Source: Berberis thunbergii (lineage: Eukaryota; Streptophyta; Magnoliopsida; Ranunculales; Berberidaceae). From it: a DNA stretch of 64,000 nucleotides. Of this stretch, positions 17,357 through 47,129 are shown in pieces. The DNA lies in assembly GCA_003290165.1 (NCBI GenBank), contig QNQO01000506.1, forward strand, positions 434,001-498,000. Reading direction: 5' to 3'. Position 1 is the stretch's first letter, and each line of letters starts with the position of its first letter. Made by a program: the position numbers and the translations under genes. The notes beneath the pieces are model-generated. The model ran no database searches. It saw nothing but the letters and a program-made list of their open reading frames with translations, and was not told the origin of the DNA.

Positions 17357-17652
17357 TAATAGAGACCTTGACCTTTTGATTGGAGATCAAACCACCTAGA
17401 TCCTTTGATTGGGGATCAGCCACCAAATAAATTAAATAAAACTTGTATTGCTTACCTAAACTCTATTACATCATATGTATTTATAACTGAAAGCAAAATA
17501 ATACTTCCTAATTGAATTCAAACCTAATTCTAAAAATAATACTTCCTAATTGAATTCAACCTAATTCTAATCAAACAATAATTCCTAATTCAAAAATAGA
17601 ACTAAGACATTCTAATCTCAAGTAACTACTAAATAGGATTGGTATCCTAACA
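17357..17652 (-). repeat. 3' LTR of the chromovirus
   Basis: 296 bp. Contains a TATAAATA box (minus, 17478-17485) and two copies of a 38-bp repeat (AATACTTCCTAATTGAATTC). The inner end is preceded on the minus strand by a purine-rich tract (AGGCGGCGTGGGA). Confidence 0.92.
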
Positions 17653-17681
17653 TCCCACGCCGCCTGAAACAAGGCTTGTCC

Positions 17682-19470: not shown

Positions 19471-20305
19471 GCGTCACATTCAATATAAAATTCAGCATTG
19501 AATCAGGGAGAGCCAGTACGGGGGTAGAAGTCAAGGCAGTTTTAAGAGCAGAAAAGGACTTGGAGGCATCATCACTCCAGATAAAAGAATCCTTCTTTAA
19601 TAACTGGGTCAAAGGAGCACTAATCTTACCATAATCGCGAACAAATTTACGGTAGTACCCGGTGAGGCCAAGAAACCCACGAAGATCCGTCAAAGAAGAA
19701 GGACACGGCCAGTTGACAACACTCGCAATTTTATCATCGTCAACTGCAACACCAAGACCAGAAATAATATGTCCAAGATACCCAATAGAAGATTGAGCAA
19801 AAGAACACTTGGACGCCTTCGCAAAAAGCTTATGAGTGCGCAATAGCCCAAAAACAATAGAAAGATGGTGTAGGTGATCAGAGAGTGATGCACTATACAC
19901 CAATATATCATCAAAGAACACGAGGACAAAGCTACGCAAGTGAGGACGAAAAATGTCATTCATCAAACTTTGAAAAGTGGCTGGGGCATTGCTTAACCCG
20001 AACGACATAACCAAAAACTCATAATGACCATCGTGCGTGCGAAAAGCCGTCTTGGAAATATCCGGTTCATGAACCCGAATATGGTGATAACCTGAGCGTA
20101 AATCGAGCTTAGAAAACACCGATGCGCCGTGCAATTCGTCCAATAATTCATCCACAATCGGAATCGGAAAGCGGTCCTTAATAGTGATTTTATTAAGGGC
20201 TCGATAGTCAACACACATGCGCCAAGAACCATCCTTCTTTCGAACCAAAAGAACAGGGGAAGAATAAGGGCTGGTGCTGGGACGAATAAGGCCTGCAGCC
20301 TTCAA
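19440..20305 (-). pseudogene. Chromovirus reverse transcriptase
   Basis: An open frame of more than 260 codons with RT motifs in order: LLVRKKDGSWRMCVDYRALN, FPIPIVDELLDELHGASVFS, KLDLRSGYHHIRV, FLVMSFGLSNAPATFQSLMN, and the catalytic FFDDILVYS (FxDD). It then passes toward the thumb and RNase H (GFLGLTGYYRKFVRDYGKIS). The YxDD tyrosine is replaced by phenylalanine, a common variant in Gypsy elements. A frameshift near 19480 separates it from RNase H. Confidence 0.92.
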
Positions 20306-21058
20306 TTCAGATACAACTTTATCAATTTCGGCTTTTTGAAAGTGAGGATATCGATATGGCCTAACATTTACAGGAGAAGCATCTGAGAAAATCGGAATGT
20401 GGTGATCATGTGCTCGGCCGGGGGGAAGGGTGGTAGGAGTGCCAAAGACATCTGAAAATTGAGCAATCAGCGGTTTGAACGACAGCTGGAATAGAAGCGC
20501 CCAGGTAAACTGCCCGAGTTAACTGTAAAAGAATGCCGTGACGTTCTGTCGTAAAGAATGATGGACCGGGGGTACTATCCATGAACATGACCATAGGATA
20601 ATTGTCGCCGATTAATGTATAAGTACGATCAGCCACCGAAAAGGACATAATCAGTTTGGAAAAATCCCAAGTAATAACACCCAAAGAGCGAAGCCAGTCA
20701 GCACCGAGAACCACATCACAGCCAGTGAAACCTAGAAGGAAGAAGTGTCTGTGGAACTCATAATCTTGTAATTTAAGGGAAACATCCCGACAAGAACCTG
20801 GACTATTCAAATGGCCACCATCCGCAATCATGACGCGTAAAACACCATCTTTGTGGATTGGAAACCCACATTTGTTTTGCAAAAGACTGGTGCAAAAAAT
20901 TATGAGTTGAACCAGAGTCAACTAAGACAGTGACAGTCCTGTGTTTTAATTGTCCAGTGAGACGCATGGTTTCAGGCCGCGGAGATCCGAGAAGGGCATG
21001 CAGAGAAATCTCGAGAGGAGGATCGGATATGGTATGATCCAGAATAGGAGGCGCAACA
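20306..21058 (-). pseudogene. Chromovirus aspartic protease region
   Basis: The active-site motif TVLVDSGSTHNFL lies at about 20890-20935, followed in another frame by the second half (FFLLGFTGCDVVLGADWLRS; ITWDFSKLIMSF). The DSG triad is present. Protease would cut the Gag-Pol polyprotein. A frame change falls just after the active site near 20860, so the domain cannot be made in one piece. Confidence 0.85.
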
Positions 21059-21958
21059 TCAGAAACCGTCGACTTCTTCCTCATGACCCTCGAGGAGCAA
21101 AACGTGGGGCTGAGGACAACGATGGCCGCGCTTATATACTTCATCACAGTTAAAGCAAAGGCCCTTGGCACGACGTTCCTGTTGTTCAGCCCATGACAAA
21201 CGTTTAACACCTGGTGGTAAACTAGGAACTGGCTTTGAAGAATTTGCAGCAGGCACAGAGTTAGCAAAATGTCGGACATGCCCTTTTGATCGAGTAGCAT
21301 TAATGGCATCTTCTTGACATAAAGCCAACTCAAAAGCATGTGTAATACTGGTAGGGTGTAACATCCGAACGCCTGCTTGAATATCAACACGCAAACCTGA
21401 TAGAAAAATGCTAATCTAATGTGGTTCAGACAACCCGGGCACCAAATTAGATAGTTTTTCGAACTCGGTAATAAATGAGCGAACCGTGCCTCGTTGTACT
21501 AACTTGGAAAGAGAACTACACGGGTCGATATGTTCGCGAGAACCAAAGTGAGAGCAAAGATCTTTCGAAAATTGTGGCCACGTTAGTGTGCCGAGTGATT
21601 GGCGAATCCATCGATACCAAGAGTTGGCATCACCCTGAAGGTGAAGAGCGGCAACGGGTAGCATCTGCTCGCTGGAAAGGCCATTGAGTTCCTGGTACTG
21701 CTCGGCCTGAAATAACCAACCATACGGATCAGTTCCGTCGAAACGGGGTAAATCAATACGGAGGCCCTTGCCCGAAATAGGAATAATTGGCCGTTGTGGA
21801 TCCGGTGGGACGTATGGTGCTGGCCGACCTGGTTGGAGATTTCGTAATGCCTCTAGAATAGTGGCATTGGTGGTCTCAAGTGAGTGGAGGTGGGAAGAAA
21901 GCCCAGCAACTTGAGCAGAAAGATCATTGACCTGCTCTTGCAATTCATCAACCGTCAT
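21059..21958 (-). pseudogene. Chromovirus gag
   Basis: Begins MTVDELQEQVNDLSAQVAGL (coiled coil), then the gag core (RIDLPRFDGTDPYGWLFQAE; VAALHLQGDANSWYRW; WPQFSKDLCSHFG). A stop follows at 21416. The frame then continues with GVRMLHPTSITHAFELAL and the knuckle CFNCDEVYKRGHRC. Gag packages element RNA in the cytoplasm. It is disrupted by one internal stop. Confidence 0.88.
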
Positions 21959-22618
21959 GATGAGTGAAATTTAAAGAAATCAGGGAGCGAGGAGTATGAT
22001 GGATGAACAACAAGATGAAGCGCTGAGACAGAATTCGGGGAAGCGCGGAGACAGAAATCGGTGAAGTGCTGGATCTGGAAGTTGAAGCGCTGAGACAATA
22101 AGTTGATGAGTATGATGAAGCGCTGAGACAAGAAGTTGAATCGCGATGAACCGGATGCACTGGTCTAAAGCGGCGAAGAACGATGCTCGGAATCGCTGAA
22201 GAACTGTGGAAGCTATGAATCGACAGTGGCTGCGCTGAAACTGGATGCTTTGGATCGACAGTGGATGCTCTGAATCGATGAAACTGGGTCTGCTGAATCG
22301 GTGATGAACGGTAAATCGATGAACCTGGAATCGGTGATGGAACTGGATTTGCTGGATGCTCTGGAGGCGCTGAATCGATGATGATGCTGGTGAAGCGCTG
22401 GATCGAAGATGAAGTCGCGCTGTTGCGAGGGTTGGTGGCGAAGGGGTGCTGATGCGAGGGCGGATCTGTTGGTGATAGCGGTTTTTGCGAAGGCCACTGG
22501 TAATTCTTTTTTTTTTTTTTTTTTTTTTTTGAAGAACTGTGTGAGGGTGTTGATGAGGGTGAAGAACGAAATAACAAGAAAAAAATTTGGTCAGAATCGA
22601 TGATGCTCTGATACCAGA

Positions 22619-22952
22619 TAATAGAGACCTTGACCTTTTGATTGGAGATCAAACCACCTAGATCCTTTGATTGGGGATCAGCCACCAAATAAATTAAATA
22701 AAACTTGTATTGCTTACCTAAACTCTATTACATCATATGTATTTATAACTGAAAGCAAAATAATACTTCCTAATTGAATTCAAACCTAATTCTAAAAATA
22801 ATACTTCCTAATTGAATTCAAACCTAATTCTAAAAATAATACTTCCTAATTGAATTCAACCTAATTCTAATCAAACAATAATTCCTAATTCAAAAATAGA
22901 ACTAAGACATTCTAATCTCAAGTAACTACTAAATAGGATTGGTATCCTAATA
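22619..22952 (-). repeat. 5' LTR of the chromovirus
   Basis: 334 bp, identical by eye to the 3' LTR except for a third copy of the 38-bp repeat and the outer terminal dinucleotide (TA instead of CA on the plus strand). Near identity indicates recent insertion. Confidence 0.92.
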
Positions 22953-26699: not shown

Positions 26700-27491
26700 A
26701 CATGGTCACTAGCACCAGATTCCGAGCTAACATTGTCAAGCCAGAAAACGTTCTAGCTAAGGAACCCGACCGCCAAGCCGGGTCGATCCAATTGAGGAAG
26801 CAGAGTTGTCGAAAGGGCCAACCGTCGGGGCTGAACCCCACATCGATCAAATTTTGCTCCATATGAATCATCTTATGCTGGTGGTGGAAAGGCTTACCAG
26901 GGATTGACAACCACCATCAGAGAATGGCAAAAATTCGAGGAGGTCCCTGACTCAAAAGGACGCTCAAGAGCATGTCCATGAGAGCGGCAAACTCCCTGTC
27001 GAAGATCAAAATGTTGGTCAGGAGGGAATCCAAGGAACGAAAAAGGTAGAGGGAATCATGCCTCGAAGGCAGACATGACAATAGTCGATAACCCACTTCG
27101 TTTGGGAGCAACCAATCCAGACGTGCTGTATGATCTTACTGTCCCTTTGTTCTCTGAGTAGATCATGAGTGCGCCATTGCCAAAGAAGTTCATTCCCCCA
27201 AAGCTCGAGTTCTATGATGGGACATCCGATCCATTAGATCACTTACGCCATTAACACCATGGGATGGCATTGAATGAAAGTTCAACCAAGATCCATCGCT
27301 CAAGTCATGGCAAAGGCGTTCATCACCCGATTCATAGGGAGCCAACGAATCATGAAGGGGCGCCACTATCTGTTTAGCCTCAAGCAGAAGCACGGTGAAA
27401 CTGTCAGGGAGTATGTCACTCGCTTCAACATGAGCTGACTCTAATCAACAGTTGCAACGGCGACACATTTATCCTCCGTGAGGTCAATTTT
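26700..27491 (+). pseudogene. Gypsy-B gag, 5' part
   Basis: N-terminus MVTSTRFRANIVKPENVLAK at 26701, a stop-ridden linker, then the gag core at about 27165-27300 (APLPKKFIPPKLEFYDGTSD, then PLDHLRH). Frames change repeatedly. It continues at 37606 after the inserted element. Confidence 0.75.
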
Positions 27492-27872
27492 TTACGCCGG
27501 ACAGAATAGTGATGATCCTGCAGGCTAGTTCAACAGACAATTCACAAGGAATGATACAAAAGATTCGCCCAAAAACACAAAGAAATAACTCTATTGTTCA
27601 ATTAAATTACTCAAATCAAAGGTCTATTACAATATTGAGGAGGAGCTCTATTTATAGTGTTCAAATAACTTGAATAATAAGCAGCCTATTCCTAAAAGAA
27701 AAAATAGAATCAAATACTAAAATAACAAGCAGTTTATTCCTAAAATAAAAAGTAAAGTCTAATCCTAAAAGGAAACTAAAAAGACTCCTAATTAAATTGA
27801 AAGATTACAAATAAGTTATTTAGTAATTAACTTTGAGAGCAAATTAGGAACTCTACAAACCCTCCTGCATTA
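27492..27872 (-). repeat. 3' LTR of the gene-carrying element
   Basis: Aligns along its whole length with 37228-37605, with scattered substitutions and small indels (for example AACTTGAATAATAAGCAGCC against AACATGAATAATAAGCACAT). It is preceded on the minus strand by a polypurine-like tract (AACCCGGGGCGAC). Confidence 0.9.
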
Positions 27873-28050
27873 GTCGCCCCGGGTTGGAAAGAACTCATCC
27901 TCAAGTTCACAATAGCTTCATCGGAATCCTCTGGCAGCAGCCCAGGAGGAAGATCCTCTGGCACCAGATTAGAAAACTCTGCTAGCTCTTGCTGGCGTAC
28001 TGGATTGTCTTTTATTTCCCTTCTTTTTGAGCTCCATTTGCAAACCTAGC
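27873..28050 (-). pseudogene. Residual pol sequence of the gene-carrying element
   Basis: In one minus-strand frame it reads QELAEFSNLVPEDLPPGLLP, the linker that precedes RT in chromovirus pol. This joins directly to AIVNLRMSSFQPG, the wording that usually ends chromovirus pol next to the 3' polypurine tract. All catalytic pol domains between these two points are missing, which defines what was lost. Confidence 0.65.
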
Positions 28051-28109
28051 ACATATTCCTTTACTATAATAATCAATTCATTGACTTCATCAACCTATTC
28101 TTTTCTCTT

Positions 28110-28621
28110 TCTACCATACTCATGAGAGATATCTTCCACCAGTATCTTTGCTGCTGATACCCCTAGAGATACAACACTTGCCATTGAATCAACATTATCA
28201 TGATGAAAGGTATCATAGTAAGCAAGGAGTCTTTTCTCTGCCCATCCCAGGATAAAACTCAATGTTGAGCTCAAGATTTTGGAATACAATGGATCATGTG
28301 TATCCTTTGCATCTTTGGCTACTTCAGCCATCCGATTGTCAGCAGCATATAGCAAGTCGGTCTCCACTTGGCCAGTTGCAACAAACCGGTGAAACAAAAC
28401 CCACAAAAAAAAGGTTGTGGAGCACTTGGTTTATGCCAAGCACCATCGTAATACTTGCATCAGTTCACTGTTCTTTCCAGTTTCTATAGGTCTCTCCAAG
28501 GCCCCTCGTATGAATTGGCGAAGACGTTGCACAACAGGATCAAATTTATCTAATGGGATATGAGGATGTAGAAGCAACCCAGCTTCTAGAACCTTCAAAT
28601 TTCTACTTTGCCAGGCTTCAT
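28110..28621 (-). pseudogene. Captured fragment of a PATROL1/MUN-domain (DUF810) protein
   Basis: Motifs: YEAWQSRNLKVLEAGLLLHP, LRQFIRGALERPIETGKNSE, then WVLFHRFVATGQVETDLLYA, AEVAKDAKDTHDPLYSKILS, STLSFILGWAEKRLLAYYDT, VVSLGVSAAKILVEDISHEY. These belong to the plant Munc13-like family that includes PATROL1, which acts in vesicle delivery of a plasma-membrane proton pump. Between MQVLR and the QVLHNL/WVLF motif about 70 residues usual in the family are missing, with a frame change at the joint, consistent with a deletion or skipped exon. No introns are visible. Confidence 0.83.
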
Positions 28622-28855
28622 ATTCTCGTTGTCCACATGAGATTGATCCAATAAATAATTTTCCAAACAAACCATTAAAAAAACTCCTAGAAAGCTTGTG
28701 CATTGTTCATCTGTTCAGCATGCAGTTGGATTTGGCCACATGGAGAAACTGAAGATCTCACCAACTTGTCGGGAATCAAGAATAGTTCGACCTCTGCATT
28801 TGCAGTATCTTCGTCCAAATTAGCCTCAATTAAGAGAACAAATACACAACAGAAC
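28622..28855 (-). pseudogene. DCL2: Captured Dicer-like fragment, second part beyond Copia-1
   Basis: Continues the 34925-35315 fragment once Copia-1 and one copy of its AGAAC duplication are removed. Motifs: FVLLIEANLDEDTANAEVEL, FLIPDKLVRSSVSPCGQIQL, HAEQMNNAQAF, FFNGLFGKLFIGS. This is the linker toward the PAZ domain of Dicer-like proteins. One stop falls between QAF and FFNG. It changes into DUF810 sequence near 28622. Confidence 0.75.
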
Positions 28856-29803
28856 TGTTGAGAAATATGCTGTAAATTCGAAAATAAAAGAAGGAACGAT
28901 GGTACCAATTTTGCTTGGGTTGAGTCGCGGACTAGGTCGCTCTCTTTAAGACGTTTCGCGGCTCTGCCCAAATTGTGCAAGCAGTTTCGTAGCCCCGCCG
29001 TCCCTAGGATAAAACAGCCCAGAATCTTCTCTGTCTCGGAATAAAATTGCACAATAATTGAACGGTATACAAATCACCCTAAATCTCCTTATTTGCTCCG
29101 AATCACCAGGAAATAAAGCAGCAACAAACAAGAAGCATAAACAGAGAAAGCTAGAACTGTTTGCAATAAACTCTGTGCGAAAACTGTTTGCTGGAAGCAG
29201 AAACTCGAAAACCTTTTTGCAAGAACTCTGTACGAAGCATAAACTGAAAGCAGAAAATCGTTTTCTTGAACTCTGTTATTTCTCTTTTGTTTTTGTTTTG
29301 TGTTGTTAAACTCTAAACAAAGAGATGGTATTTATAGGTATAAAACATACAATCAAAAAACGAGATAAAGACTAGGTTCATTGGCAGGATCAAGTCGTGG
29401 GTCGTGGAGAAGATATGGTGGCGGATTTTTTGCCAAAAATCACGGAGCCAAAGAGACCGTTTGGACTCAGTCCTCTTCAGAAAAAATTTTCGTTTAAATA
29501 AAATTTCAGCAAAAAATTGTTTTGCTATCTAAATGACCCAACCCGCCCGACCGACCGGACGGACGGCGGCGGCGGTGGGCGCGAGGGCCTATCTCTCCCC
29601 TCCTCATAAAAGAGTGGTACCCCCAAGGGGTCCAAACCCAAGTCCTAACTATCTTCTTATATACTCTACCTCAAAGAGATATATAGTAGATATGGGACTA
29701 TAAAATAGAGAGTGGCTCAAAGATCAACATAGGAGAGGGAGGTCCAGGGTTCAAAACCTGGTAAACACACATTTGTTTTTATTAAAAAGCCAAATTTGCA
29801 ACA
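28856..29803 (-). repeat. 3' LTR of Copia-1 (long version)
   Basis: Matches 34286-34924 at both ends but keeps about 310 bp lost from the other copy, chiefly around 29200-29440. A polypurine tract (AAGTGGGGGAT on the minus strand, 29804-29814) lies next to it. Within 29720-29775 is a tRNA-like T-arm wording (GGTCCAGGGTTCAAAACC). Confidence 0.9.
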
Positions 29804-30342
29804 ATCCCCCACTTGGATTTTTAAAAAACAATTTTCATCGAGCAATCTTTAAAATATAAGATTGTACATAAACAAAAGTGTCTTTTGACTTGAACTCTTG
29901 CGTAGTGTTCATGCTTTAGAATATACTAGAGTAACTCGTAGTTTTGAACTCTATCTCTAACAGACATTACACGCACAACCTTACCAGGGTGAAGTCTAAA
30001 AAGCCCGTGCTTTACGGCCATGCACATATATCCCAGTGTAGTGAAGGCTCTAGGAATTTTGCCCACAAATTCCATAGGAAGCCGCCAAACTTCCACAATC
30101 ACTTAGGTGAGTCTATCAAGAGTACTCATGTAGCTAGGTACTCCACTCCACATAGAGTATAGACCTCATTAAGAGTTTTTAACTCATCCTACTATCGCTT
30201 CAGGAGTTCATGCTTTAATCTAGGAATGAGATTGCTATTTTGTCAGCATGATTCACATCATATCATTCACGACTTGTTATTACCCATTGAACCTATTTCT
30301 TGGGATCTCCAGTCTATAGGTTGGGTTACCATCGTGAATAAC

Positions 30343-31815
30343 TCATAAAACTAAGGGCATTAGTCCCATTCCTTTCGAGATTTTGAAAACTTTCTCTCTG
30401 GCTAATCCTTTCGTCAAAGGATCAGCTAAGTTTGCATCAGTTCGTACATGATCCGCTCTCACAGCACCAGTAGATAGAAACTCTCTAACTGTGTTGTGCT
30501 TACGACGTATTTGTCGTTTCTTGCCGTTATAATAACGGTTCTGTATTTTTTCAATAGCCGCGGTACTATCGCAATGGATCAAGACAGCTGGAATCGGTCT
30601 TTCCCATAAAGGGATCTCTGCTAGCAGGTTTCTTAACCAACCTGCTTCTTCACTAGCCGTGGCTAGTGCTATAATCTCTGACTCCATCGTGGACTGTGCT
30701 AAAATGGTCTGTTTCTTTGATTTCCAAGAAACAGCTCCACCAGCTATATTGAAAATATAGCCACTGGTGGCTTTGGAGTCATCTGAAAGGGTGTTCCAAT
30801 CAGCATCGCTATATCCTTCAAGGACAGCGGGAAACTTCTGATAATGTAATCCGAGGTTCTTAGTCCTCTTCAGGTACCTCATGACCCGTTCAATTGCATG
30901 CCAATGCTCTATACTAGGTCTACTTGTAAATCTGCATAGTAATCCAACAGCGTAAGCTATGTCGGGTCTAGTGCAATCGGTAGCATATCTAAGACTACCA
31001 ATGATGCTCGCAAACTCTGATTGTCTAACACCGTCACCAGTGTTCTTGAACAACTTTACACTAGAGTCATAAGGAGTACATGCAGGTTTACAGTCAGAGT
31101 AATTATATTTATTTAGGATCTTCTCGATATAGTGAGATTGATCCAAAGAAATTCCCTTTTCAGACCTAGTAATCTTGATACCAAGGATTACACTCGCTTC
31201 TCCAAGGTCTTTCATATCAAAATTTGCACACAATAAAGCTTCCACTTTATTCACGGCATGGATATTAGAACCAAAGATTAGTAAGTCATCCACATACAGA
31301 CATATTATAGTGCAAATGCCATTTTAAGCTTTATAGTAAATGCATTTGTCACTTTCGTTCACTTTAAAGTCATGTGCGATAACTAGATTATCAAATTTTT
31401 CCTGCCATTGTTTTGGAGCTTGTTTCAAACCATAAAGTGACTTATCTAGTTTGCAAACTTTATGTTCTTGTCCTGGAATAACAAAACCTTCAGGTTGGTC
31501 CATGTAAATTTCTTCTTCCAAATCACCATTAAGAAACGCAGTCTTAACGTCCATTTGGTGCAAAACTAGGTTATGTATTGCAGCAAGAGAAATTAACACT
31601 CGAATAGATGTAATCCTGGTTACAGGAGAATATGTATCAAAGAAATCAACATTTTCTCTTTGTCTATACCCTTTGGCTACGAAACGAGCCTTGAACTTGT
31701 CAACATTACCATCGGGTTTCAATTTCTTCTTAAATACCCATTTACATCCTATTGTCTTACAACCTGGTGGCAAATCGACTAAGTGCCAAGTTCTGTTAGA
31801 CTCAAGAGAGTACAT
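30343..31815 (-). pseudogene. Copia-1 reverse transcriptase and RNase H
   Basis: RT motifs: TWHLVDLPPGCKTIGCKWVF, FKARFVAKGYRQRENVDFFD, YSPVTRITSIRVLISLAAIH, MDVKTAFLNGDLEEEIYMDQ, then a stop at 31324 and, in the same frame, the catalytic [10 protein letters not shown] at about 31300. RNase [74 protein letters not shown]. Apart from that stop and a frameshift before it (31815-31896) the domain is well preserved. Confidence 0.92.
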
Positions 31816-31895
31816 TTCATCATCGATAGCCTCTTCCCAAAAATTGGCATCTATAGAGGATAGGGCCTCTTGAAAACTAAGGGGATCCTCTTCGA

Positions 31896-32852
31896 CTAAA
31901 AAGACATAGTAATCGAGGCCAAAGTTTTAGAAGTTCGTTTCCGTTTACTTCTTCTTGGCTCAGATTCTGTGGCTTTATCAGTTTCATTTACCCTGATCAA
32001 GGGTAAGTTGTTTGATGATGTTCCCCCACTATTCCTCGAAATAAAAGGAAATTTATCTTCATAAAAGTCAACGTCGTTTGATTCTATAATAACTTGATCT
32101 TTAAGATTATAGAATCTATAAGCTTTGCTATTCATGGCGTATCCTATGAATACGCATTCATATGCCCTACTAGCAAGCTTGTTCCTTTTAGGATCAGGAA
32201 TTCTAACATAAGCTAAACAACCCCAAGTTTTCAAATAAGACAGGTTTGGTTGTCTATTTTTCAGAATTTCATAGGGCGATGTTTTACTTTTCGATTTGGG
32301 GACTCTATTTAGCACATAACAGACTGTTAAGATAATTTCTCCCCACCAGTGCGATGCAGCACCGGAGTTAAGCATTATGGCAACTACTAACTCGGTAAGA
32401 GTTCTATTTTTCCTTTCAGCTTTGCCATTCATCTCAGGAGAATATGGTGCAGTTGTTTGATGAATAATTCCTTGAGAATTATAAAACTCTATGAAAGTAC
32501 TGCTATCATATTCAGTGCCTCTATTACTCCTAAGTCTCTTAATCTTTCTATTATATTGATTTTCAACTTCAGTCAAAAATAATTTAAACATGTCAAAGGC
32601 ATCACTTTTATTTTTCATTAAATAAACAAAAGTATAATCAGAACAGTCATCAATAAACGTAATAAAATAATGTTTTCCATTTCTAGTCAAGATACCATCA
32701 AGTTCACATATATCTGAGTGTATCAAATCTAAAGGTTCAGATTCTCTAACTACAGATTTATGTGGTGTTTTGGTTATCTTAGCTTGACTACAATAGTTGC
32801 ACTTTTCAAAATCATTTAAGGACAATTTTGGAATTAGTCCTAAGTTACTCAT
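31896..32852 (-). pseudogene. Copia-1 integrase
   Basis: Zinc-finger second half CNYCSQAKITKTPHKS, then core motifs (LIHSDICELDGI; YFITFIDDCSDYTFVYLMKN; LRSNRGTEYDSSTFIEFYNS; HQTTAPYSPEMNGKAERKNR), then the GKT-like C-terminal block (YLKTWGCLAYVRIPDPKRNK). The second catalytic Asp context, usually SDRG or SDNG, reads SNRGTEY here, so this aspartate is replaced by Asn. It ends in RRSKRKRTSKTLAS and a stop at 31896. Confidence 0.88.
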
Positions 32853-33325
32853 GTTTTAATAATACGTTTATTAACATGACAAAGTCTAGCATGCCAGATA
32901 TTGAAAGTGCACAACATGTAAGCAGAACTAGAAATTTTATTCACTTCAACATTTAACTTAAACATCCCATCAGTAGCATACCCTTTCCCCACAAATACAT
33001 TATTTTTTGTGATGGTATATAAATCAGCCCCTATAATTTGAGTAAACCCAGCCTTGTTCAGAAGAAAACCAGATACTAGATTCTTTCTCATCTCTGGAGT
33101 ATGCAAGACGTCTTTCAGGATAACTGTCTTTCCAGAGGTAAACTTCAGTTCTACTGTTCTAGTTCCAGCAACTATAGTAGAGTGGGAATCACCCAACAAC
33201 ACTTTCTTGTCCTCAGCTTCAGAATAGGACTTGAACATTCCTCGATCATAGCATACATGTCGAGAAGCACCAGTGTCAACCCACCATCCCTCGGATCCAC
33301 CAACAAAATTGATCTCAGAGATCAT
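32849..33325 (-). pseudogene. Copia-1 protease
   Basis: The active site WWVDTGASRHVCYD lies near the start of a 158-codon open frame, then KKVLLGDSHSTIVAGTRTVE and VLHTPEMRKNLVSGFLLNKA. The DTGA catalytic triad is intact. The frame ends at the start of the integrase zinc finger (WHARLCHVNKRII). Confidence 0.88.
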
Positions 33326-33339
33326 GGCAATAAGTTGGT

Positions 33340-34258
33340 CTTCGGTTAGATTCGTCTGAGGTGCAGGGCGAGATCCATTCCGGCAGTTCCTGGCAATATG
33401 CCCTGGCCTACCACAGGTGTAGCAAAGGAACTGTGTTGAATCATTCTTGGAGGGATGTTTCTGTCCATTCTGATTTCGCGGAGGATTCTGATTCTGATGG
33501 TTGCAGTTCTAATTGTTTCGGTTCTGCTGGTTCCGATTCTGATGGTTCCGGTTTTTATTGTTATTCTGATTTTTCATTGTCTTTCCATTAAGTTTCAGAG
33601 AAACAGGAGTAGACTTCTTATGGTTTGAAATAATCAGAACTTCCTCTTTTTGATCTTGTTTCCTGGCTTCCTCCTCAATACGAAGTCGGGTTATCAAGCT
33701 TTCTAGGGAAAACTCTTTAGTTTTATGCCTAAGGACATTCTTAAAATCTTTCCAGCTAGGGGGCAATTTGTCTATCACAACAGCTACTTGAAATTGCTCA
33801 TCTAAAGTCATTCCCTCAGATATAATTTCATGAGCAATCTTTTGAAGCTCATGTGATTGGGTTTCCACAGATTTATCATCAGTCATTTGAAATTTCAGAT
33901 AGCGATTGACAGCATATTTCTTTGTGCCAGCCTCCTCAGTGTCATATTTCTTTCTAAGGGCTTCCCAAATATCTTTTGCAGTTTGTTCAGTACAGTAATA
34001 ATCATAAAGATCACCAGACAGACCATTCAGGATAAAATTTTTACATAAAAAATCATTTTCAATCCAACGGTCGAATTCTTTAATTTGGGTTTCAGTAGGC
34101 TCAGCAGGCATGGTAGGTTTTTCAGTATCACAAACATATGCAACCTTTTGTGTTGTTAGAAAAAACAACATCTTTTGTCTCCATCTTTTAAAGTGTTGGC
34201 CCTCTAAACAAAAGGGCCTATTAAGGTCTTTAGCAGCAATTTCAGTAATTGAATTCAT
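33340..34258 (-). pseudogene. Copia-1 gag
   Basis: Begins MNSITEIAAKDLNRPFCLEG at 34258. UBN2-type gag motifs follow: FKRWRQKMLFFLTTQKVAYV, FLCKNFILNGLSGDLYDYYC, ELQKIAHEIISEGMTLDEQF, VAVVIDKLPPSWKDFKNVLR, and an Asn/Gln-rich basic tail. A stop lies near 33509. The knuckle CYTCGRPGHIARNC follows at about 33385-33430. Gag forms the particle. Confidence 0.9.
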
Positions 34259-34285
34259 GGCAGATGTAGAAATACGTCTTAAAAT

Positions 34286-34924
34286 TGTTGAGAAATATGT
34301 TGTAAATTCGAAAATAAAAGAAGGAACGATGGTACCAATTTTGCTTGGGTTGAGTCGCAGACTAGGTCGCTCTCTTTAAGACGTTTCGCGGCTCTGCCCA
34401 AAATTGTGCAAGCAGTTTCGTAGCCCCGCCGTCCCCAGGATAAAACAGCCCAGAATCTTCTCTGTCTCGTTCAAAAATTGAACGGTATACAAATCACCCT
34501 AAATCTCCAGGAAATAAAGCAGCAACAAACAAGAAGCATAAACAGAGAAAGCTAGAACTGTTTGCTGGAAGCAGAAACTCGAAAACCTTTAAAATCACGG
34601 AGCCAAAGAGATTGTTTGGACTCAGTCCTCTTTAGAAATTTTTTTCGTTTTGCTATCTAAATGACCCAACTCGCTCGCCCGGACGGACGGCAGCGGCAGG
34701 CGCGAGGGCCTATCTCTCCCCTCCTCATAAAAGAGTGGTACTCCCAAGGGGTCCAAACCCAAGTCCTAACTATCTTCTTATATACTCTACCTCAAAAAGA
34801 TATATAGTAGATATGGGACTATAAAATAGAGAGTGGCTCAAAGATCAACATAGGAAAGGGAGGTCCAGGGTTCAAAACCAGGTAAACACACATTTGTTTT
34901 TATTAAAAAGCCAAATTTGCAACA
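34286..34924 (-). repeat. 5' LTR of Copia-1 (internally deleted)
   Basis: 639 bp, with the same ends as the 3' LTR. Deletions remove most of the segment equivalent to 29200-29440. The gag ATG lies only 28 bases inside this LTR, and no standard primer-binding site is recognisable in that gap. Confidence 0.88.
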
Positions 34925-35315
34925 AGAACTCATCAACCTGCTCACAAAAGAAATTTATTCTATATGCATTCAAACTGAAGCCATCGGCTTTATCTCCCCA
35001 AGTTCCAGCTAAAGCACGCACAGTTGTTGTCCCATGGAGTTCCTTCCTTTTGGTTGTTCCAACACCAGAAGCACGATCTTTAGTTTCTCCATCTAGACTT
35101 TTCTCCAGAGTCTCTTCAACATACAGAAGAAGGTGATCATCAAGAGCACCTGCTTCATGTAATTTTCTACAGGCCTCTAAGCATGCAAGCTGCTTAGTGA
35201 AATGGATGGTTTTTGTAAAAGGGCCAACTATTTTTGGCATTACAGCATTAGGAGGTAAATTTAAAATGCACTCACCGGAATGCTGCAACACAATGCTATA
35301 CTTCTTCTCAAAGTA
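34925..35315 (-). pseudogene. DCL2: Captured fragment of a Dicer-like protein (DCL2-like), dimerisation-domain region
   Basis: Directly follows the SPP fragment in the same reading frame. Motifs: SIVLQHSGECILNLPPNAVM, PKIVGPF, KQLACLEACRKLHEAGALDD, then KRKELHGTTTVRALAGTWGD and LNAYRINFFCEQVDEF. The LACLEACRKLHEAGAL...HLL motif is the Dicer dimerisation domain (DUF283), which follows the helicase in plant Dicer-like proteins. The GTTKRKELHGTT stretch fits DCL2 best, from memory. Dicer-like proteins cut double-stranded RNA into small RNAs. Neither helicase nor RNase III domains are present. Copia-1 interrupts the fragment at 34924. Confidence 0.75.
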
Positions 35316-36246
35316 ATCTTCGTCTATCTTCAATTTCTCATAAGCAAAATATACGTCGTCAATCGTGGCAACTTCATAAAGCAAAGGCAGCTCCTTGATG
35401 CAAGATATATCCTTTCTCGGAACAGAAGAAGCTTGCAAATGAGCTAGTAATCCAAGCCAATATGCATTTGACTGTGATTCTGCTTCATGTCTCATCAGCA
35501 GGGTTCGCTTTGCTCTGTCCAACTCCCTTTGGGCAATCTTGTTGATGTACAAACCTCTAAGAACATTCTTGCATGCATCAACAGCTTTGTAGACCTTGGC
35601 AGGAGTTGAAGTCACTGAGATCACATACCACCAAGGTTCAGCCTATCAAACAAGCTTAATTCGAAGGACACATCATAAGTTAATCCTAAAGAATCCCGAA
35701 CTGTGGTAAAGAGCCTAGAGTTAATGATCCCTACTAACAAGTCCAGCGTGATGCCAAAGAAGAGTGGATGACTGTTAAGTTTTCCTCGCAGATCCCTATT
35801 CACATCCTTCGACTCACGTACTAGTGACTCCTCCAAATTTGATTGTTCATCTATATGCAAATTGCTAACCAACTCAAACAGATCTTGCCCTTCAAAGGTA
35901 AAACCCCATCTATTTGGTGCAGGGCCAGCAATATATGCACAGGCCCTCTCATTAGTATCCTTCAAGAACACTTGCTGAAACTGCAGATCAGAGGGCGACC
36001 GTCGAAACACAATTGGATTAACTTCAGGTTCCCCAGCAGTTCTTGTCGCTTTAACTGTACCCGGGCAATCAAGAATGCAAGATTCTGTTTCAGTTCCCTA
36101 ACGATGCTTACCTCCATATTGTCACCCACAAACTGATTCATAACAGCATCTTTGACAGCCTGCAGTGCCAATTTTTGTAAGGATTGTGGGGTAGGCTCCA
36201 TAAAGCCCTAATCACCATTCAGCATTGCAGACATGACGCCGGGCAT
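35316..36246 (-). pseudogene. SPP: Captured fragment of chloroplast stromal processing peptidase (SPP, M16 metalloprotease), C-terminal part
   Basis: In the host, SPP removes transit peptides from proteins imported into chloroplasts. This intronless piece matches the C-terminal half of SPP from memory: SAMLNGD, MEPTPQSLQKLALQAVKDAV, MNQFVGDNMEVSIV, then after a frame change TVKATRTAGEPEVNPIVFRR, SPSDLQFQQVFLKDTNERAC, AYIAGPAPNRWGF, and after another change YVISVTSTPAKVYKAVDACK, RELDRAKRTLLMRHEAES, AYWLGLLAHLQASSVPRKD, ending KLKIDED. Two frameshifts and a stop (GD*GF) are present. The HXXEH zinc site lies in the N-terminal half and is absent. The lack of introns over about 300 residues suggests capture from spliced RNA. 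Confidence 0.85.
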
Positions 36247-36264
36247 AATAGCATTGGTTCTCAA

Positions 36265-37175
36265 CTAATCGTCCCATGAATCACCCTTTGGAGTCAGTAG
36301 ACTCTTACGAACGATCAGAGTCTCATGGCCATCTCCATATTCATCATCATCATACACAGGCTCTCCAAGCTCCTCAATGTCGTCTACCACATCTTCTTCA
36401 ATCAGGACATTGTTACCTTTCTGAATAGCAGACTTGCACTCAGTCGCTCTATGTCCATGTTCATCGCATCTGAAACATCTAATATTTGAGTTAGAATTAA
36501 CCTGCGGTGGCTGCTGGGTACGACGAGATTCTTGAGGGCGAACTGGCCGACTGCTTTGATCACTTATGATCATTGGCCTCATGTTCTGTTGTTTCTCCAC
36601 AGCAAGTGCATGCTGGTAGGCTTCAGAAACGGTCATCAACGAGTGAAGTCGCTGAAATAAGGGTTGAGTGTAGCTTAAAGGAAGGAAGTGACCCTTCATC
36701 TTCTCCCAATTAGTGATTTTGGCCTTGCCCTGCCTGTCTCGTGCTCGCTTCAACTGCTCCCACCATGCTGATGTTTTGCCTTTGAGTTTTTTAGCAACTA
36801 ATTTCACCTTGACATGATCTTGGACTTTCTTATACTAAAAATACACTCAACTTCATTCAACCAATCCACGAATCCTTCGCCCTGTAACGTACCAAAAAAA
36901 TCGGGTAGATCCACTGTGAAACCAAGATTTTCATGACGATCCTCTCGACCACGACGCTCCCAGAATCGAGCACTATTGTGATACAGGTTTTCGAAACTGG
37001 AATCAGAATCGTGATCTTCCATCTCATGATTACCAAAATCCTACGCCGTTAGACGCTGGGTTAACTCTGCAACTTGCCTCTGTAAATCCTCAATCACCAC
37101 ATCCTAAACGTTACGATCATGGTTTAAGGCTTCCTCGTTCGGAACCTGCCCGCGACGACCACGACCACCAGCCAT
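36265..37175 (-). pseudogene. gag of the gene-carrying element
   Basis: Starts MAGGRGRRGQVPNEEALNHD at 37175, then a coiled stretch (IEDLQRQVAELTQRL) with two stops. The core is FTVDLPDFFGTLQGEGFVDW and LNEVECIF; then KLKGKTSAWWEQLKRARDRQ, WEKMKGHFLPLSYTQPLFQR, and the knuckle CFRCDEHGHRATEC. The order and motifs are those of chromovirus gag. It ends with SLLTPKGDSWDD at 36265, just where the gag-protease linker would begin. The peptidase fragment starts about 20 bases further on. Confidence 0.85.
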
Positions 37176-37227
37176 GAAAACTGATGAAATCTCACCCCCA
37201 AGAAGATGTTGAAGCTCTGATACCAAC

Positions 37228-37605
37228 TAACGCCGAACATAATAGTGATTATCCCGCAAGCTAGTTCAACAAACAATTCACAAGGAATGATACAAGAGAT
37301 TCGCCCAAAAACATAGAGAAATAACTCTAATGTTCAATTAAATCACTCAAATCAAAGGTCTATTACAATATTGAGGAAGAGCTCTATTTATAGTGCTCAA
37401 ATAACATGAATAATAAGCACATATTCCTAAAAGAAAAAATATAATCAAATACTAAAATAACAAGCATTTTATTCTAAAAATAAAAAGTAAAGCCTAATCC
37501 TAAGGAAACTAAAAATACTCTTAATTAAATTGAAAGATTACGAATAAGTTATTTAGTAAATAACTTTGAGAGCAAATTAGGAACCCTAGAAACCCTCCTA
37601 CATCA
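37228..37605 (-). repeat. 5' LTR of the gene-carrying element, with adjacent primer-binding site
   Basis: Matches 27492-27872. On the minus strand its inner end is followed within two to three bases by TGGTATCAGAGC (37214-37225), complementary to the initiator tRNA-Met end used by many plant LTR elements. Confidence 0.9.
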
Positions 37606-37912
37606 ATTTTACAACTTCCTTACTTTGGAGCCTCCAAAGGACATATCAAACTTACTAAAGAACGTGCAAAAGTACATCACTCTTGAAGAGATGACATCGG
37701 CCAGGGAAGGTGAAAATGAGGCCAAGCAATCCCTCAAGACCCGAGACAGGGGAGATGCAAAGAGGCGTGAGGAGGATGACAAATCCAAAAGGAGGCAAAA
37801 CAACAGCAGGGTCGAATTTGACAAGGTCACCAACTTTAATATAAGGTACCCCAACTACATCCTGCTCAACACCAGTTTGTCAAAAATCTTCTCCGCCATG
37901 AAGAGATGGGAG
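37606..37912 (+). pseudogene. Gypsy-B gag, 3' part
   Basis: Resumes with FYNFLTLEPPKDISNLLKNV, then QKYITLEEMTSAREGENEAK, a charged run (RDRGDAKRREEDDKSKRRQN) and NYILLNTSLSKIFSAMKR. The LEPP..S.LL...Q.YI..EE order matches Gypsy-A and plant Gypsy gag in general. It ends where the hAT-like terminus starts at 37913. Confidence 0.8.
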
Positions 37913-38455: not shown

Positions 38456-39190
38456 AGTGTTTGTTTAATGCAGAAGGATCTGAGTCAGATGATGATGAGC
38501 TGTTAGATAGCACATTATTAGGACTAAGATATCTTGAATTAGCAAATCAATGCAAGGATGACAAGAAATCATAATTCTATTTCTAATTTGGCAGTTTTGG
38601 GTGCGTTTTAGTATTTTGGCCATAACTGTAGCTACGAGTATCAGAATCACGCAAACGACCCCAATTCTGAAAACTTTTTTCAACGCGCATGACGTGGTCA
38701 ACAAGCTATGCTCATTTCACATCTTTTCGAACTTGGGTCGTTTGCGCGATTCTGATACTCGTAGCCAAAATTATGGCCAAAATACTAAAACGCACCCAAA
38801 ACTGCCAAATTAGAAATAGAATTATGATTTCTTGCCATCCTTCCGCTGATCTGCTAATTCAAGATATCTTAGTGCTAATAACGTGCTATCTGACAGCTTA
38901 TTATTCAACGAGCTTATTATTCTGATCTTCTCTTTTCAATGAGCATAGCTTGTTGACCACGACGTGCGCATTGAAAAGAGTTTTCCAAATTGGAGTCATT
39001 TGCACGATTCTGATACTCATAGCCAAAGTAATGGCCAAAATACTAAAACGCACCCAAAACTGCCAAATTAGAAATAGAATTATGATTTCTTGCCATCTTT
39101 GCTCTGCTAATTCAAGATATCTTAGTGCTAATAACGTGCTATCTGACAGCTCAACATCATCTAACTCGGATCCTCCTGCATCATTGTTCC
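38456..39190. repeat. Triplicated repeat, one copy direct and two inverted
   Basis: A block reading GATATCTTGAATTAGCAAAT ... GGGTGCGTTTTAGTATTTTG ... GTGGTCAACAAGCTATGCTC occurs forward at about 38515-38725. It occurs again in reverse complement at about 38726-38890 (partly deleted) and 38930-39150. The forward copy and third copy could pair as a hairpin with arms of about 210 bp. An open stretch (ELLDSTLLGLRYLELA) is encoded by the plus strand in the first copy and by the minus strand in the third. Gene identity unknown. Confidence 0.85.
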
Positions 39191-41029: not shown

Positions 41030-41480
41030 GGCATTATTATGACTGTTTCATGAGCATCTCCTAATTGTAAATAATTTTTTTCTATGAGTTCAGTAGAATA
41101 TATGGATTGAATTCATAGTGATTCCTGGTTTTCCAAATTTTCGTGTATATCAAGTGCTGTATTTGGTGTGGTTTGGTTTCTTGTTAGTTTCTATTTGCTG
41201 GTTTTCATTCGCACATCAGTTATTTTCTAACTCTATTCTGTCCTTCTAATCCTGCTCTGTCCTCTAGTAAGTGTTTGAAAAAGGTTCAAGGGACATCATA
41301 TTTGCAAAAAAATTCTGCTTGCAAGACATGTGAACTTTAAGTAACTTGATTCACAGTACATATGTTGGAATTAATTTAATTTATTTGTTTTAAAAATGAA
41401 AGTTTTGCATGGGCTAGTGATAGCTTCCCTTATTAGCATACTTCAGAAATACAAAAGCTCAGTCCAAACAATGTTTTCAG
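41030..41480. other. 3' flank of RCP-2, no gene
   Basis: AT-rich sequence between the hAT right target duplication and the stop codon of the root-cap-family gene. No feature recognised. Confidence 0.5.
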
Positions 41481-42817
41481 CTAATACTGAGCCACCGCAT
41501 CAATTGTAGCAGCTGCTGTGCCCTTGAATCTGCAAGCTTTGCAAATAGGTGAAAAGAGGGATGCAGCGCGATATTTGTCCTCTCCTCCCATCATTGGCAT
41601 GGGAACACCAACCTTGACTGGACTGACATAGTCTGGCCTGTATGTTTTGCCTAGCACTCCCTCAACTAAGTCTGTCAGCTTGGTGAACCGGAATTGAGTT
41701 TCCAAGTGTGCAAAAGCATCATCAGATGGCAGTTGGTAGTTGTGCGCTTTACTCTCTTCAGCTCCAATAGGTGTAACCTTTACATCCATCTCTAACAATC
41801 CACTTACCGTCACTCTCACATTGTTTGTCTCATCAGTTCGTTCTACTATTAATTCTCTCCTTCCAGCATGTGTACGCCATTCAGCTTGGTCGTCAGCTGG
41901 TATCTCAATTGATTGACCATCCCATCGGACAGTGAGGGCATCTAGTTTGTCGTTCCAATGAGAGATTCTTTTAGCAGCTAGTACTAGAGTGTGAGACTCA
42001 AACATGACGGATAATGCCTGCACCCATGTGAAGTCCCTTGTCCTACCCTGTGGTCGGGTTCCAATGAAGTGTGCATTAATTTGGACATCATCATCAGAAA
42101 CAAGGGCAAAGTCTCCTCCCTTGGCTCCATGGAAGTAGAACATCACACCATCACCACCAATGAATCGTGGATCATAGCATACAGAGCCATATCCTTCACA
42201 TTTAGGTTTCCTATCTGCAAATTACATGAAAGTTATGATTAAGTTGGAAAACCTTCAGACTCCATATGCCAAAACTTGTTATTTTGTAAAGGAATCTGTA
42301 TATACGGTTAAGTGCTCATCTGACCAAGCCTTTAGTGTCATCTATTGCAAGTCATATACACTAAGAGCGGGACAGTTAACATGTAATTGGTAATAGTAAA
42401 CTTACATTTGCAAGTTGTTTCACACTTGCTACCACAATTGATGAAGCATCCCTTGAACTTCTTGTTCTTCTTAGGCTTCCTCTCTGGGCACTCAGCAGGG
42501 CATTCGAGTGTCTTGTAATAGCAATGTCCTTTTGCCTTACAGTGAACTCTCTCCTGCCCAGTCTCCTTCTTTCCTGGCAATTCGTCATAGTCTGTCTCAT
42601 CATTGTCTTTTCCAGCATTGCCTTTATCGTTCCTATCAGTCTTTCCCTTGTTATCTGCCTTGCCAGTCCCTTTCCCGTTGCCATTACCATTTCCACTACC
42701 AGTAACCGTGCCTTTACCATCAGTCTTCCCTTTGTCATCTCCCACAGCTAAGTTGGCACTCATGGAGACAAGCAGCACAAGAACTGCAACCAAAAGAATA
42801 GACTTGCGCCTATCCAT
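41481..42817 (-). CDS. Root-cap/LEA-related secreted protein (RCP-2), intact, two exons
   Basis: Exon 1 42817-42406 (donor GTAAGT), exon 2 42214-41481 (acceptor TTTGCAG); the joined frame is open, about 381 residues. Signal peptide at residues 1-26 (RRKSILLVAVLVLLVSMSA, then NLAVGD). A Gly/Asn/Lys-rich linker follows at about 27-80, shorter than in the paralogue. The Cys-rich block is HCKAKGHCYYKTLECPAECP, then FKGCFINCGSKCETTC. The root-cap domain starts at about 138 (CEGYGSVCYDPRFIGGDG; FYFHGAKGGDFALVSDDDVQ; GRTRDFTWVQALSVMFESHT; RTDETNNVRVTVSG; YQLPSDDAFAHLETQFRF; CKACRFKGTAAATIDAVAQY end). Family members are secreted and linked to root cap or seed tissue; the molecular function is unknown. 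It is the tandem partner of the broken gene at 14661-16374, now separated by 25 kb of transposons. Confidence 0.9.
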
Positions 42818-44560: not shown

Positions 44561-44574
44561 GTTTTTTAAAACCT

Positions 44575-47050
44575 CTTCTTTGATCTTTTTTTATCTGATC
44601 TTCTTTGGTCTTCTTTAATCTTATTTGATCTGATCTTCTTTGATTTGATCTTCTTTGATCTAATTTTCTTTGATCTAATCTGATCTTCTTTAATCTGATC
44701 TGATTTTCTTTGATCTTATTTGATATTCTTTGATCTGATCTTCTCGGATCTGATTCGATCTTCTTTGAACTTCTTTGATTTTCTTTGATTTTCTTTGATC
44801 TTTTTTTATCTGATCTTCTTTGGTCTTCTTTGATTTTATTTTGATATTCTTTGATCTGATCTTCCTTGATCTTCTCTGATCTTCTTTGAATTCTTGATCT
44901 TCTTTTATCTTTTTGATCTGATCTTCTTTGATTTTCTTTGGTCTTCTTTGATCTTCTTCGATCTTATTTGATATTCTTCGATCTTATTTGATATTCTTTG
45001 ATCTGATCTGATCTTCTTTGATCTTCTTTGATCTTATTTGATATTCTTTGATCTGATCTGATCTTCTTTGATCTTTTTGAACTTCCTTGATCTTCTTTGA
45101 TTTTCTTTGATCTTCTTTGATTTTTTTGATCTGATCTTCTTTGATCTTCTTTGGGTCTACTTTGATCTTCTTCGATCTTATTTGATATTCTTTGATCTGA
45201 TCTTCCTTGATCTTCTGTGATCTTCCTTGATCTTCTTTGAATTCTTTGATCTTCTTTTATCTTTTTTGATCTGATCTTCTTTGGTCTTCTTTGATCTTCT
45301 TCGATCTTATTTGATATTCTTCGATCTTATTTGATATATTCTTTGATCTGATCTGATCTTCTTTGATCTTATTTGATATTCTTTGATTTGATCTTCTCTA
45401 ATCTTCTTTGATCATCTTTGAACTTCTTTGATCTTCTTTGATTTCTTTGATCTTTTTTTATCTAATCTTCTTTGATCTTCTTTGGTCTTCTTTGGTCTTC
45501 TTTGATCTTCTTCGATCTTATTTGATATTATTTGATCTGATCTTCTTTGAATTCTTTGATATTCTTTTATCTTTTTTGATCTGATATTCTTTGATCTTCT
45601 TTGATCTTCTTTGATATTCTTCGATCTTATTTGATATTCTTTGATTTGATCTGATCTTATCTTCTTTAATCTTATTTGATATTCTTTGATCTGATCTTCT
45701 CTGATCTTCTTTGAACTTCTTTGATATTCTTTGATCTTCTTTTATCTTTTTTGATCTGATCTTCTTGGATATTCTTTGGTCTTCTTTGATCTTCTTCGAT
45801 CTTATTTGATATTATTTGATCTGATCTTCCTTGATCTTCTCTGATCTTCTTTGATCTTCTTTGAATTCTTTGATCTTCTTTTATCTTTTTTGTTCTGATC
45901 TTCTTTAAGTCTTCTTTAATCTTCTTTGATCTTCTTTCGATCTTATTTGATATTCTTTGATCTGATCTTCTTTGATTTTCTTTGATATTCTTTGAACTTC
46001 TTTGATCTTCTTTGATTTTCTTTGATCTGATCTTCTTTGATCTGATCTGATCTTCTTTGATCTTATCTGGTTTTCTTTGATTTTCTTTGATCTGATCTGA
46101 TCTTCTTTGAACTTCTCTGATCTTCTTTGATTTTCTTTGATCTTCTTTAATCTGATCTGATCTTTTTTTATCTGGTCCTTCTTTGGTCTTCTTTGATCTT
46201 ATTTGATCTGATATTCTTTGATTTTCTTTGATCTTCTTTGATCTGATCTGATTTTCTTTTATCTGATATTTTTTTATCTGATCTTCTTTGGTCTTCTTTG
46301 ATCTTAGTTGATCTGATATTCTTTGATCTGATCTGATCTTATTTGATCTGATCTTCTTTGATCTACTTTTAACTTCTTTGATCTTCTTTGATCTTATCTG
46401 ATCTGATTTAATCTAATCTCTTTGATCTACTTTTAACTTCTTTGATCTACTTTTAACTTCTTTGATCTCATCTGATCTTCTTTGATCTGATCTTTTTATC
46501 TTCTTTGATCTAATATTTTTTGATCTACTTTTAACTTCTTTGATCTTCTTTGATCTGATCTGATCTAATCTTCTTTGATCTTCTTTTAACTTCTTTGATT
46601 TGATATTCTTTGATCTTCTTTGATCTGATCTGATCTGATTTTCTTTGATCTAATCTGATCTTCTTTGATCTACTTTGATCTAATCTTCTTTGATATTCTT
46701 TTAACTTATTTGATCTGATCTTCTATGGTCTTGTTTGATCTTCTTAGATCTTTTTTGATTTGATCTTCTTTGATCTAATCTTCTTTGATATGATCTTCTT
46801 TGATCTTTTCTGATCTTTTTTTATCTTCTCTGATCTTCTTTGAATTTCTTTGATCTGATCTTCTTTTATCTTCTTTGATATTCTTTTATCTGATCTTATT
46901 TGATCTGATCTTCTTTGAATTTATTTGATCTGATGTTATCTTCTTTGATCTCATCTTCTTTGATCTGATTTGATTTTTTTTATCTGATCTTCTTTTATCT
47001 TCTTTGATATGATCTGATTTTTTTTATCTGATCATCTTTTATCTTCTTTT
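44575..47050. repeat. TTCTTTGATC/TGATC minisatellite, about 2.5 kb
   Basis: An irregular array of TTCTTTGATC and TGATCTGATC with variants (TTATTTGATATTCTTTGATC, TTCTTCGATC, AACTTCTTTGATC). Higher-order repeats of about 60-140 bp can be seen, for example the blocks at 44990-45060 and 45330-45400. The plus strand is strongly pyrimidine-rich. No ORF longer than shadows. Confidence 0.92.
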
Positions 47051-47129
47051 TATTCGAAAATGTGTTATTGGAGATTTTATCCAGTTTATAAATATATAGC
47101 GATTTTGTTTTATATAATTAAAAAAAAAA

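Follow-up and report, generated by a model that had tools for sequence, protein, structure and literature searches.

How does a single long terminal repeat (LTR) retrotransposon come to hold spliced pieces of several unrelated host genes? This question is raised by an element on the minus strand of a 64,000-nucleotide stretch of Berberis thunbergii DNA (C506:434001-498000, the window), where it occupies positions 27492-37605 with both end positions exact. The element is a non-autonomous LTR retrotransposon, and its interior reads as host cDNA pieces of four genes, SPP, DCL3, PATROL1 and COPA. Searching the assembly (2.24 Gb in 11,732 contigs), we found relatives of the element with other host cargo, and captures of two unrelated genes, LON and PATROL1, leave the element at the same splice-donor-like base. 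We consider it quite probable that spliced host RNAs were joined to the element transcript and that template switching, reintegration and further copying followed.

The identity of the cargo was established against genes of the same plant. Compared with their parents exon by exon, the pieces are 88-99% (SPP), 92-99% (DCL3) and 96-98% (PATROL1) identical, and these identities exclude chance matching. In a whole-assembly search with 34925-36262 as the query, the SPP piece, named from its matches to plant 'stromal processing peptidase' proteins, returned the parental exons at query 27-154, 150-294, 289-416, 407-549, 547-670, 667-748, 750-852 and 850-954 on several contigs; it has these 8 exons without the 7 introns. 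In the DCL3 pieces parts of 3 exons are joined and 2 introns (about 1270 and 94 bp) are missing, the dimerisation-domain part (query 989-1204 and 1203-1338) coming from C4:4287961-4288176 (96%) and 4289447-4289582 (99%). Among PDB sequences the match is DCL3 (7vg2), whose residues 643 to 794 run in order across a Copia element nested in the cargo; in the downstream part, residues 722-770 match at E 1e-7 and residues 773-794 weakly (E 0.096). The 42-nt PAZ-region piece also crosses an intron of the C4 parent. It stands out of gene order, and a back-spliced circular DCL3 RNA was considered for the reversed PAZ/dimer order and set aside because the joint is not at exon borders.

The third piece, which has plant 'putative protein unc-13' entries among its matches and is presumably PATROL1 by name, falls inside a single parental exon and hence has no bearing on intron loss. 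Within it 189 bp are deleted at about 28446/28447, a gap for which exon skipping was rejected, the missing 189 bp being contiguous coding sequence in the parent. Two further PATROL1-like copies, L057 (C1013) and L058 (C2543), apparently keep the intron before the capture exon, and several parental-type copies are possible. The fourth piece, a COPA tail, matches only coatomer alpha chains on its own (E 0.018-0.11); in the sister copy L035 it lies within longer cargo, of which a segment scores COPI_C at 4.3e-12 and matches coatomer alpha, and 16 further rows of the assembly search match the COPA piece (query 755-866 or 754-866).

An earlier note on this DNA had named three host pieces. All three are real, and COPA, at about 27994-28096, makes a fourth; the Dicer-like piece stands as such, and its assignment to DCL2 does not, the best match being DCL3. 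The note had called the pieces intron-free, which holds for SPP and DCL3 and is given no test by the single PATROL1 exon. Its suggestion that the parents be sought in the same genome led to those of SPP (C9735 and other contigs), DCL3 (C4) and PATROL1 (C13). It would have taken adjacent parents, introns in the pieces or unpaired LTRs as evidence to the contrary. The parents lie on separate contigs, those of DCL3 and PATROL1 each more than 200 kb from the nearer contig end, and where the other two points can be examined, introns are absent and the LTRs pair.

This spliced state bears on the idea that a DNA transposon, a Pack-MULE or Helitron, gathered the fragments and then landed in an LTR element. 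Such elements do gather gene fragments, as described in the passages concerned of PMC13317346, but they would keep introns, and SPP and DCL3 are intron-free; moreover, in sister elements the host pieces directly abut element sequence. We regard this origin as hardly credible. It is also very improbable that the fused pieces form a working chimeric gene under selection, as proposed for Bs1 of maize: all the host pieces are in the element's sense orientation, as such a gene would have them, but the SPP piece runs through three frames, the PATROL1 piece contains frameshifts and gag is broken.

The cargo sits in an LTR element (Table 1). The window LTRs, about 380 bp long, pair over their full length with 28 differences in 375 aligned columns (Kimura two-parameter distance 0.079), ATTTT is duplicated on both sides, and a primer binding site that we take to be of the tRNA-Met type adjoins the 5′ LTR; an LTR pair, a 5-bp duplication and such a primer site had been described in the earlier note. 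The gag that it reported is present as a remnant only, in which profile matches are limited to the zinc knuckle and a weak Retrotrans_gag. With its LTRs and 5-bp duplication the element is not a LINE-type processed pseudogene. At the substitution rate of 1.3e-8 used for pepper LTR elements in the cited part of PMC5664825, which may not fit this plant, the LTR divergence would be about 3 million years. Other family copies have LTR ends reading TGATG...CA. The 3′ block is common to most fetched family copies; L042 has no match to it, and the L043 sequence ends before that region. The nested Copia has its own duplication, AGAAC, at 28851-28855 and 34925-34929. The window interior consists of gag remnant, host pieces and Copia, with no reverse transcriptase or integrase of the element's own, as judged without a reverse transcriptase profile search.

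Table 1. Features of the element at 27492-37605 of the window.
Feature	Position	Strand	Remarks
Target-site duplication ATTTT, left copy	27487-27491
3′ LTR (element sense)	27492-27872	-	92% identical to the other LTR
3′ block	27873-27994	-	Short pol remnant as read by eye (EDLPPGL...SFQPGA)
COPA tail, fourth host piece	27994-28096	-	Common to L033, L035, L038 and L041
PATROL1/unc-13-like piece	28088-28631	-	Parent C13:2643953-2644688, 98% and 96%
DCL3/PATROL1 joint	28622-28631	-	10-nt microhomology CAACGAGAAT
DCL3 downstream part	28622-28855	-	Parent C4:4289584-4289722 and 4289817-4289912 (94%, 92%)
Nested Ty1/Copia element	28856-34924	-	Outside the cargo; splits the host element
DCL3 dimerisation-domain part	34925-35275	-	Dicer_dimer 7.1e-11
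Spliced DCL3 PAZ-region piece, 42 nt	35277-35318	-	Out of gene order
SPP piece	35309-36236	-	8 parental exons joined
Family LTR end, 19 nt (GCTATTATGCCCGGCGTCA)	36234-36252	-	Directly before SPP
gag remnant	36253-37213	-	Frame broken; CCHC knuckle
Primer binding site TGGTATCAGAGC	37214-37225	-	Adjoins 5′ LTR
5′ LTR (element sense)	37228-37605	-
Target-site duplication ATTTT, right copy	37606-37610

A near-identical copy (about 99%) with the same flank lies on a second contig, C8158, and is probably the other haplotype; the assembly probably holds both haplotypes, since many fetched family loci occur in near-identical pairs on different contigs. A search for other copies, as the earlier note had proposed, also found the sister element L033 with SPP, PATROL1 and COPA in the same order. 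The region is repeat-rich and has the nested Copia, and one could therefore suspect an assembly chimera or a stack of unrelated insertions, but the structure recurs on C8158, the order of three pieces recurs in L033 and there is a single duplication pair at the element ends, which makes an artifact of this kind next to impossible in our judgment.

Next we consider how the pieces are joined in the window. Both parents of the DCL3/PATROL1 joint read the shared sequence given in Table 1, exact over 10 nt, and there is a 9-nt overlap between the PATROL1 and COPA matches, 6 nt of it exact in the L035 copy (the true COPA parent being unseen). Before SPP stands the 19-nt end of a family LTR, which matches the LTR ends of L005/L011 (one place), L017, L019, L021 and L022 with one mismatch; in the sister L033, GGCGTCA precedes the same SPP base. 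This suggests a read-through transcript past the LTR as the simplest source, and a template switch onto the LTR is a possible alternative. The earlier note had the pieces meeting within a few bases of each other, which is right for the direct DCL3/PATROL1 joint at 28622-28631; elsewhere the 19-nt LTR end at 36253 and the 42-nt PAZ piece near 35318 intervene. Its expectation that the joints coincide with exon borders failed, for there are none among the window joints comparable with a parent.

Several observations weigh against the mechanism that we favor, as far as the window and its parents are concerned. SPP was entered inside an exon, and splicing therefore did not make that joint. The SPP/PAZ-piece joint shares only 4 nt (GATT), the gag/LTR-end and LTR-end/SPP joints share 3 nt each, the two ends of the PATROL1 deletion share 1 nt, and the PAZ/dimer joint shares none and has 2 extra bases. 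Judged from the letters, microhomology is clear at one joint and likely at a second; the remaining joints share hardly more than chance would give. The COPA parent gene was not located in the assembly. The earlier note's view that spliced RNAs were copied into a non-autonomous LTR element withstands the counter-evidence that it named, and its template switching draws clear support from the joint with 10 nt of microhomology and less from the others.

The relatives of the element bear on how a capture begins. Of 2335 candidate gag-related places 40 were scored and listed, and we examined sequence at 30 of these (the window, C8158, and 19 plus 9 further loci, with several allele-like pairs); the sample is biased toward places nearest to the window gag, and five of the nine in the second batch were picked for a shortened gag match. 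Host cargo is present at 13 of the 30 (the window, C8158, L009, L010, L012, L015, L020, L034-L038 and L041), and 17 are cargo-free (L011, L013, L014, L016-L019, L021-L027, L039, L040 and L042). By coordinates, a cargo match lies beside the gag match at 4 of the remaining 10 places (C142, C6117, C127 and C125).

In the cargo-free copies gag is followed by about 525 bp and then by a short 3′ block, all of this between two LTRs; in the bases fetched for L042, neither a 3′ block nor an LTR follows the 525 bp. The cargo-free copies leave no room for reverse transcriptase or integrase, and the loss of pol therefore looks like a family trait; the earlier note's proposal that host genes replaced pol is probably wrong, pol having been lost earlier on this view. 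LTRs and gag without these enzymes are what defines TR-GAG elements, although the single open GAG frame of that class is broken in the window copy. The 525-bp stretch was named a protease remnant by eye, and a search with its pieces, separate and unaltered, yielded no match better than a sub-threshold one (E 0.073), which counts against this part of our reading.

The sister elements hold other gene pieces in other combinations. LON (Pfam 3.8e-12) is the cargo of L009 and L010, PATROL1 with a TOPLESS-related WD40 piece that of L012, L015 and L020, and ROS1 (PDB 4.3e-25) with LON that of L034 and L036. COPA is found in L035, its start (weakly, E 0.0082) with alpha-mannosidase (3.1e-10) in L037, COPA with serine carboxypeptidase (4.7e-11) and a NO VEIN-like piece in L038, and COPA with 2-oxoglutarate dehydrogenase (2e-17) in L041. 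Through cargo matches we also found family elements outside the 30, namely L033 (C5638) and, on C7098, L032/L043 with PPR-DYW (7.4e-8) and DCL3; C415 and C7793 have a BMS1-like piece, PATROL1 and COPA. With the window, the cargo genes total 13, of which NO VEIN and BMS1 were named by eye only. Against Pfam, the PATROL1 and NO VEIN pieces found no match and the ROS1 pieces none to a glycosylase. A supposed TOPLESS bit in L033 proved on translation to be PATROL1 sequence also present in L012.

Downstream of gag the element carries a donor-like site, GGCAGTGAG/GTAACAG (the slash marks the boundary). Among 11 cargo-free copies checked, 9 have GAG/GTAACA, read GAGGTAACAG (L011, L013, L016, L017, L018, L021, L023, L027 and L039), the exceptions being L042 with GAGGCAACAG and L025 with GAGATAACAG. 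At the PATROL1 capture, L012 and L020 read ...GGCARTGAG/CTTGGAAGACGC, and the parental exon starts ...ATGGACAG/CTTGGAAGACGC, a boundary also given as ...GGACAG/CTTGGAAG. At the LON captures, 8 of 8 copies checked read GGCAGTGAG/ATCATAGC or ATCATAAC, and the parental exon starts ...GTGTTAG/GTCATAGC; L009 has lost the stretch after the LON joint. The LON and PATROL1 captures thus have one exit base in the element in common and enter the host genes at exon starts, LON one base different. Because of this one shared exit base and the exon-start entries, we conclude that splicing probably began both captures. The LON first base, A in 8 of 8 copies checked and G in the parental exon, speaks against it.

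These joints also bear on the chief alternative, in which every join, the first included, would be a template switch onto free host mRNA that had been packaged by chance, with no splicing. It agrees with the tested window joints, which lie inside exons and include the one with 10 nt of microhomology, and it is the published model of LTR-mediated retroposition in the portion cited (PMC5408686). It does not account for the exit base shared by LON and PATROL1, for the donor in 9 of 11 cargo-free copies checked or for entries at exon starts (LON one base off). Two unrelated genes at one element base and at exon starts are something that random switching would be hard put to explain, and we hold the alternative to be rather unlikely.

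In the mechanism that we favor, splicing followed by template switching, the element transcript would first be joined to host exons. For LON and PATROL1 this would occur by RNA splicing from the fixed donor-like site to a host exon start, the simplest route being read-through of an intronic element; for the window, given the LTR end directly before SPP, it would occur by read-through past the LTR. After packaging, template switches during reverse transcription, sometimes at short shared sequences, would add further host pieces until the enzyme, supplied in trans, switched back onto the element 3′ end. In the earlier note's proposal, the proteins would be those of another chromovirus. The chimera would then integrate with a normal 5-bp duplication and be copied again, and the cargo would spread and be reshuffled. 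Capture and movement are here read from their products.

Cargo has indeed reached more than one site. The PATROL1-TOPLESS cargo is the same in L012 and L020 (92.8%), the flanks differ and each copy has its own duplication, CACCA and AACGT/AACGC, and from these two separately duplicated sites it follows that the chimeric cargo moved. LON cargo lies on 21 contigs besides the parent's two, several of them probably alleles; the upstream element sequence was checked at the 8 places mentioned. A LON-matching stretch is repeated seven times at C3:1011111-1026647 and eight times at C4756:80842-98904 with a spacing of about 2531 bp, and we read this as an apparent tandem array of the ROS1-LON element. 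Of 14 copies put to the LTR comparison, four had a single LTR within the stretch; the other ten, sister copies that include L012 and L020, gave divergences of 0.060 to 0.105, similar to the window.

Differences from the parents are less telling about the number of captures. In the second half of PATROL1, 7 of 347 differences from the C13 parent are common to the window and L033; in the first half, 2 of 185 are common to the window and L012, and L020 has one of these two. SPP gives 0 of 125 and 3 of 145 between the window and L033. By such comparison, shared differences do not clearly separate one capture from change in the parent gene, a further point against our reading. Derivation of the window PATROL1 first half from an L012-type element was rejected, as it is 98% identical to the C13 parent and 95% to L012, with few shared changes.

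Elsewhere in the window, inverted and direct repeats (86-91%) adjoin the element at 38468-39181, and a long tandem array with shifted copies of about 74-80% identity lies at 44574-47055. The stretches 14647-16278 and 41466-42589 are related and gene-like (73-76%), one beside a glycine/asparagine-rich tandem repeat. Copia-type frames at 49821-54773 are flanked by two 213-bp repeats (98.6%), probably a young element, and Gypsy-type frames at 17357-22950 by two repeats of about 330 bp (88.6%).

The family may be a natural exon shuffler. It is about an even chance, in our view, that this gag-only LTR family is a standing exon-shuffling system, in which the fixed donor traps host exons when copies lie in introns and template switching between co-packaged family RNAs recombines and multiplies the cargo, fusing and spreading pieces of unrelated genes again and again. 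It would then do by reverse transcription what Pack-MULEs and Helitrons do as DNA transposons. The family offers numerous captures whose copies can be dated, whose parents can be identified and whose joints can be read, and one can therefore test directly how and in what order capture proceeds, and whether splicing starts it. Silencing-gene cargo (DCL3, ROS1) could, speculatively, feed small RNAs back on host genes.

Retroviral oncogene transduction proceeds by read-through, splicing and then template switching back; the same steps are proposed here, for a plant element and with no infectious virus. Single elements, Bs1 among them, are the usual illustration of exon shuffling by LTR elements. 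LTR-mediated retroposition was reportedly described by Tan et al. in 2016. It is presented, in the section cited, as template switching at microsimilarities onto host mRNA (PMC5408686), and it differs from the present case, in which one element has pieces of several genes and the first joint of two captures looks spliced.

The LTR element Bs1 itself has pieces of three host genes (PMC13317346, PMC5408686), and not of one as the earlier note had it; the pieces are exons only according to the lines on it in PMC4717578. Like Bs1, the window element holds pieces of several host genes, with the parents of SPP, DCL3 and PATROL1 on different contigs and, for SPP and DCL3, without introns; unlike Bs1, it holds four, its sisters carry other combinations, and its frames are broken where the Bs1 type calls for a transcribed and translated hybrid reading frame. 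The soybean terminal-repeat retrotransposon in miniature GmaRetroS15 likewise has intron-free fragments of three host genes in one small LTR element, as its entry in PMC4717578 describes, whereas here gag remnants are kept and a single exit site serves two captures. TR-GAG elements, with LTRs and gag but without most other proteins, have been shown to transpose in Arabidopsis (PMC8704663); the family here has a further remnant after gag, and the descriptions in that source on which we draw mention no cargo. In pepper, spliced NLR genes were amplified inside mostly non-autonomous LTR elements (PMC5664825, relevant passages), as is the cargo here, but there one gene family was expanded and here unrelated fragments are mixed within an element. 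A maize survey, in its portion cited here, reported 425 gene-bearing LTR elements, and under the conditions of that survey no element combined fragments of two or more standard nuclear genes (PMC2774510). Our search of the open-access literature returned reviews, surveys and single cases, and no such family described. The window element is thus a further case of a known kind, since capture of several genes by one LTR element is already known from Bs1 and GmaRetroS15; what looks new is one gag-only family that captures repeatedly, reuses its donor site and reshuffles its cargo.

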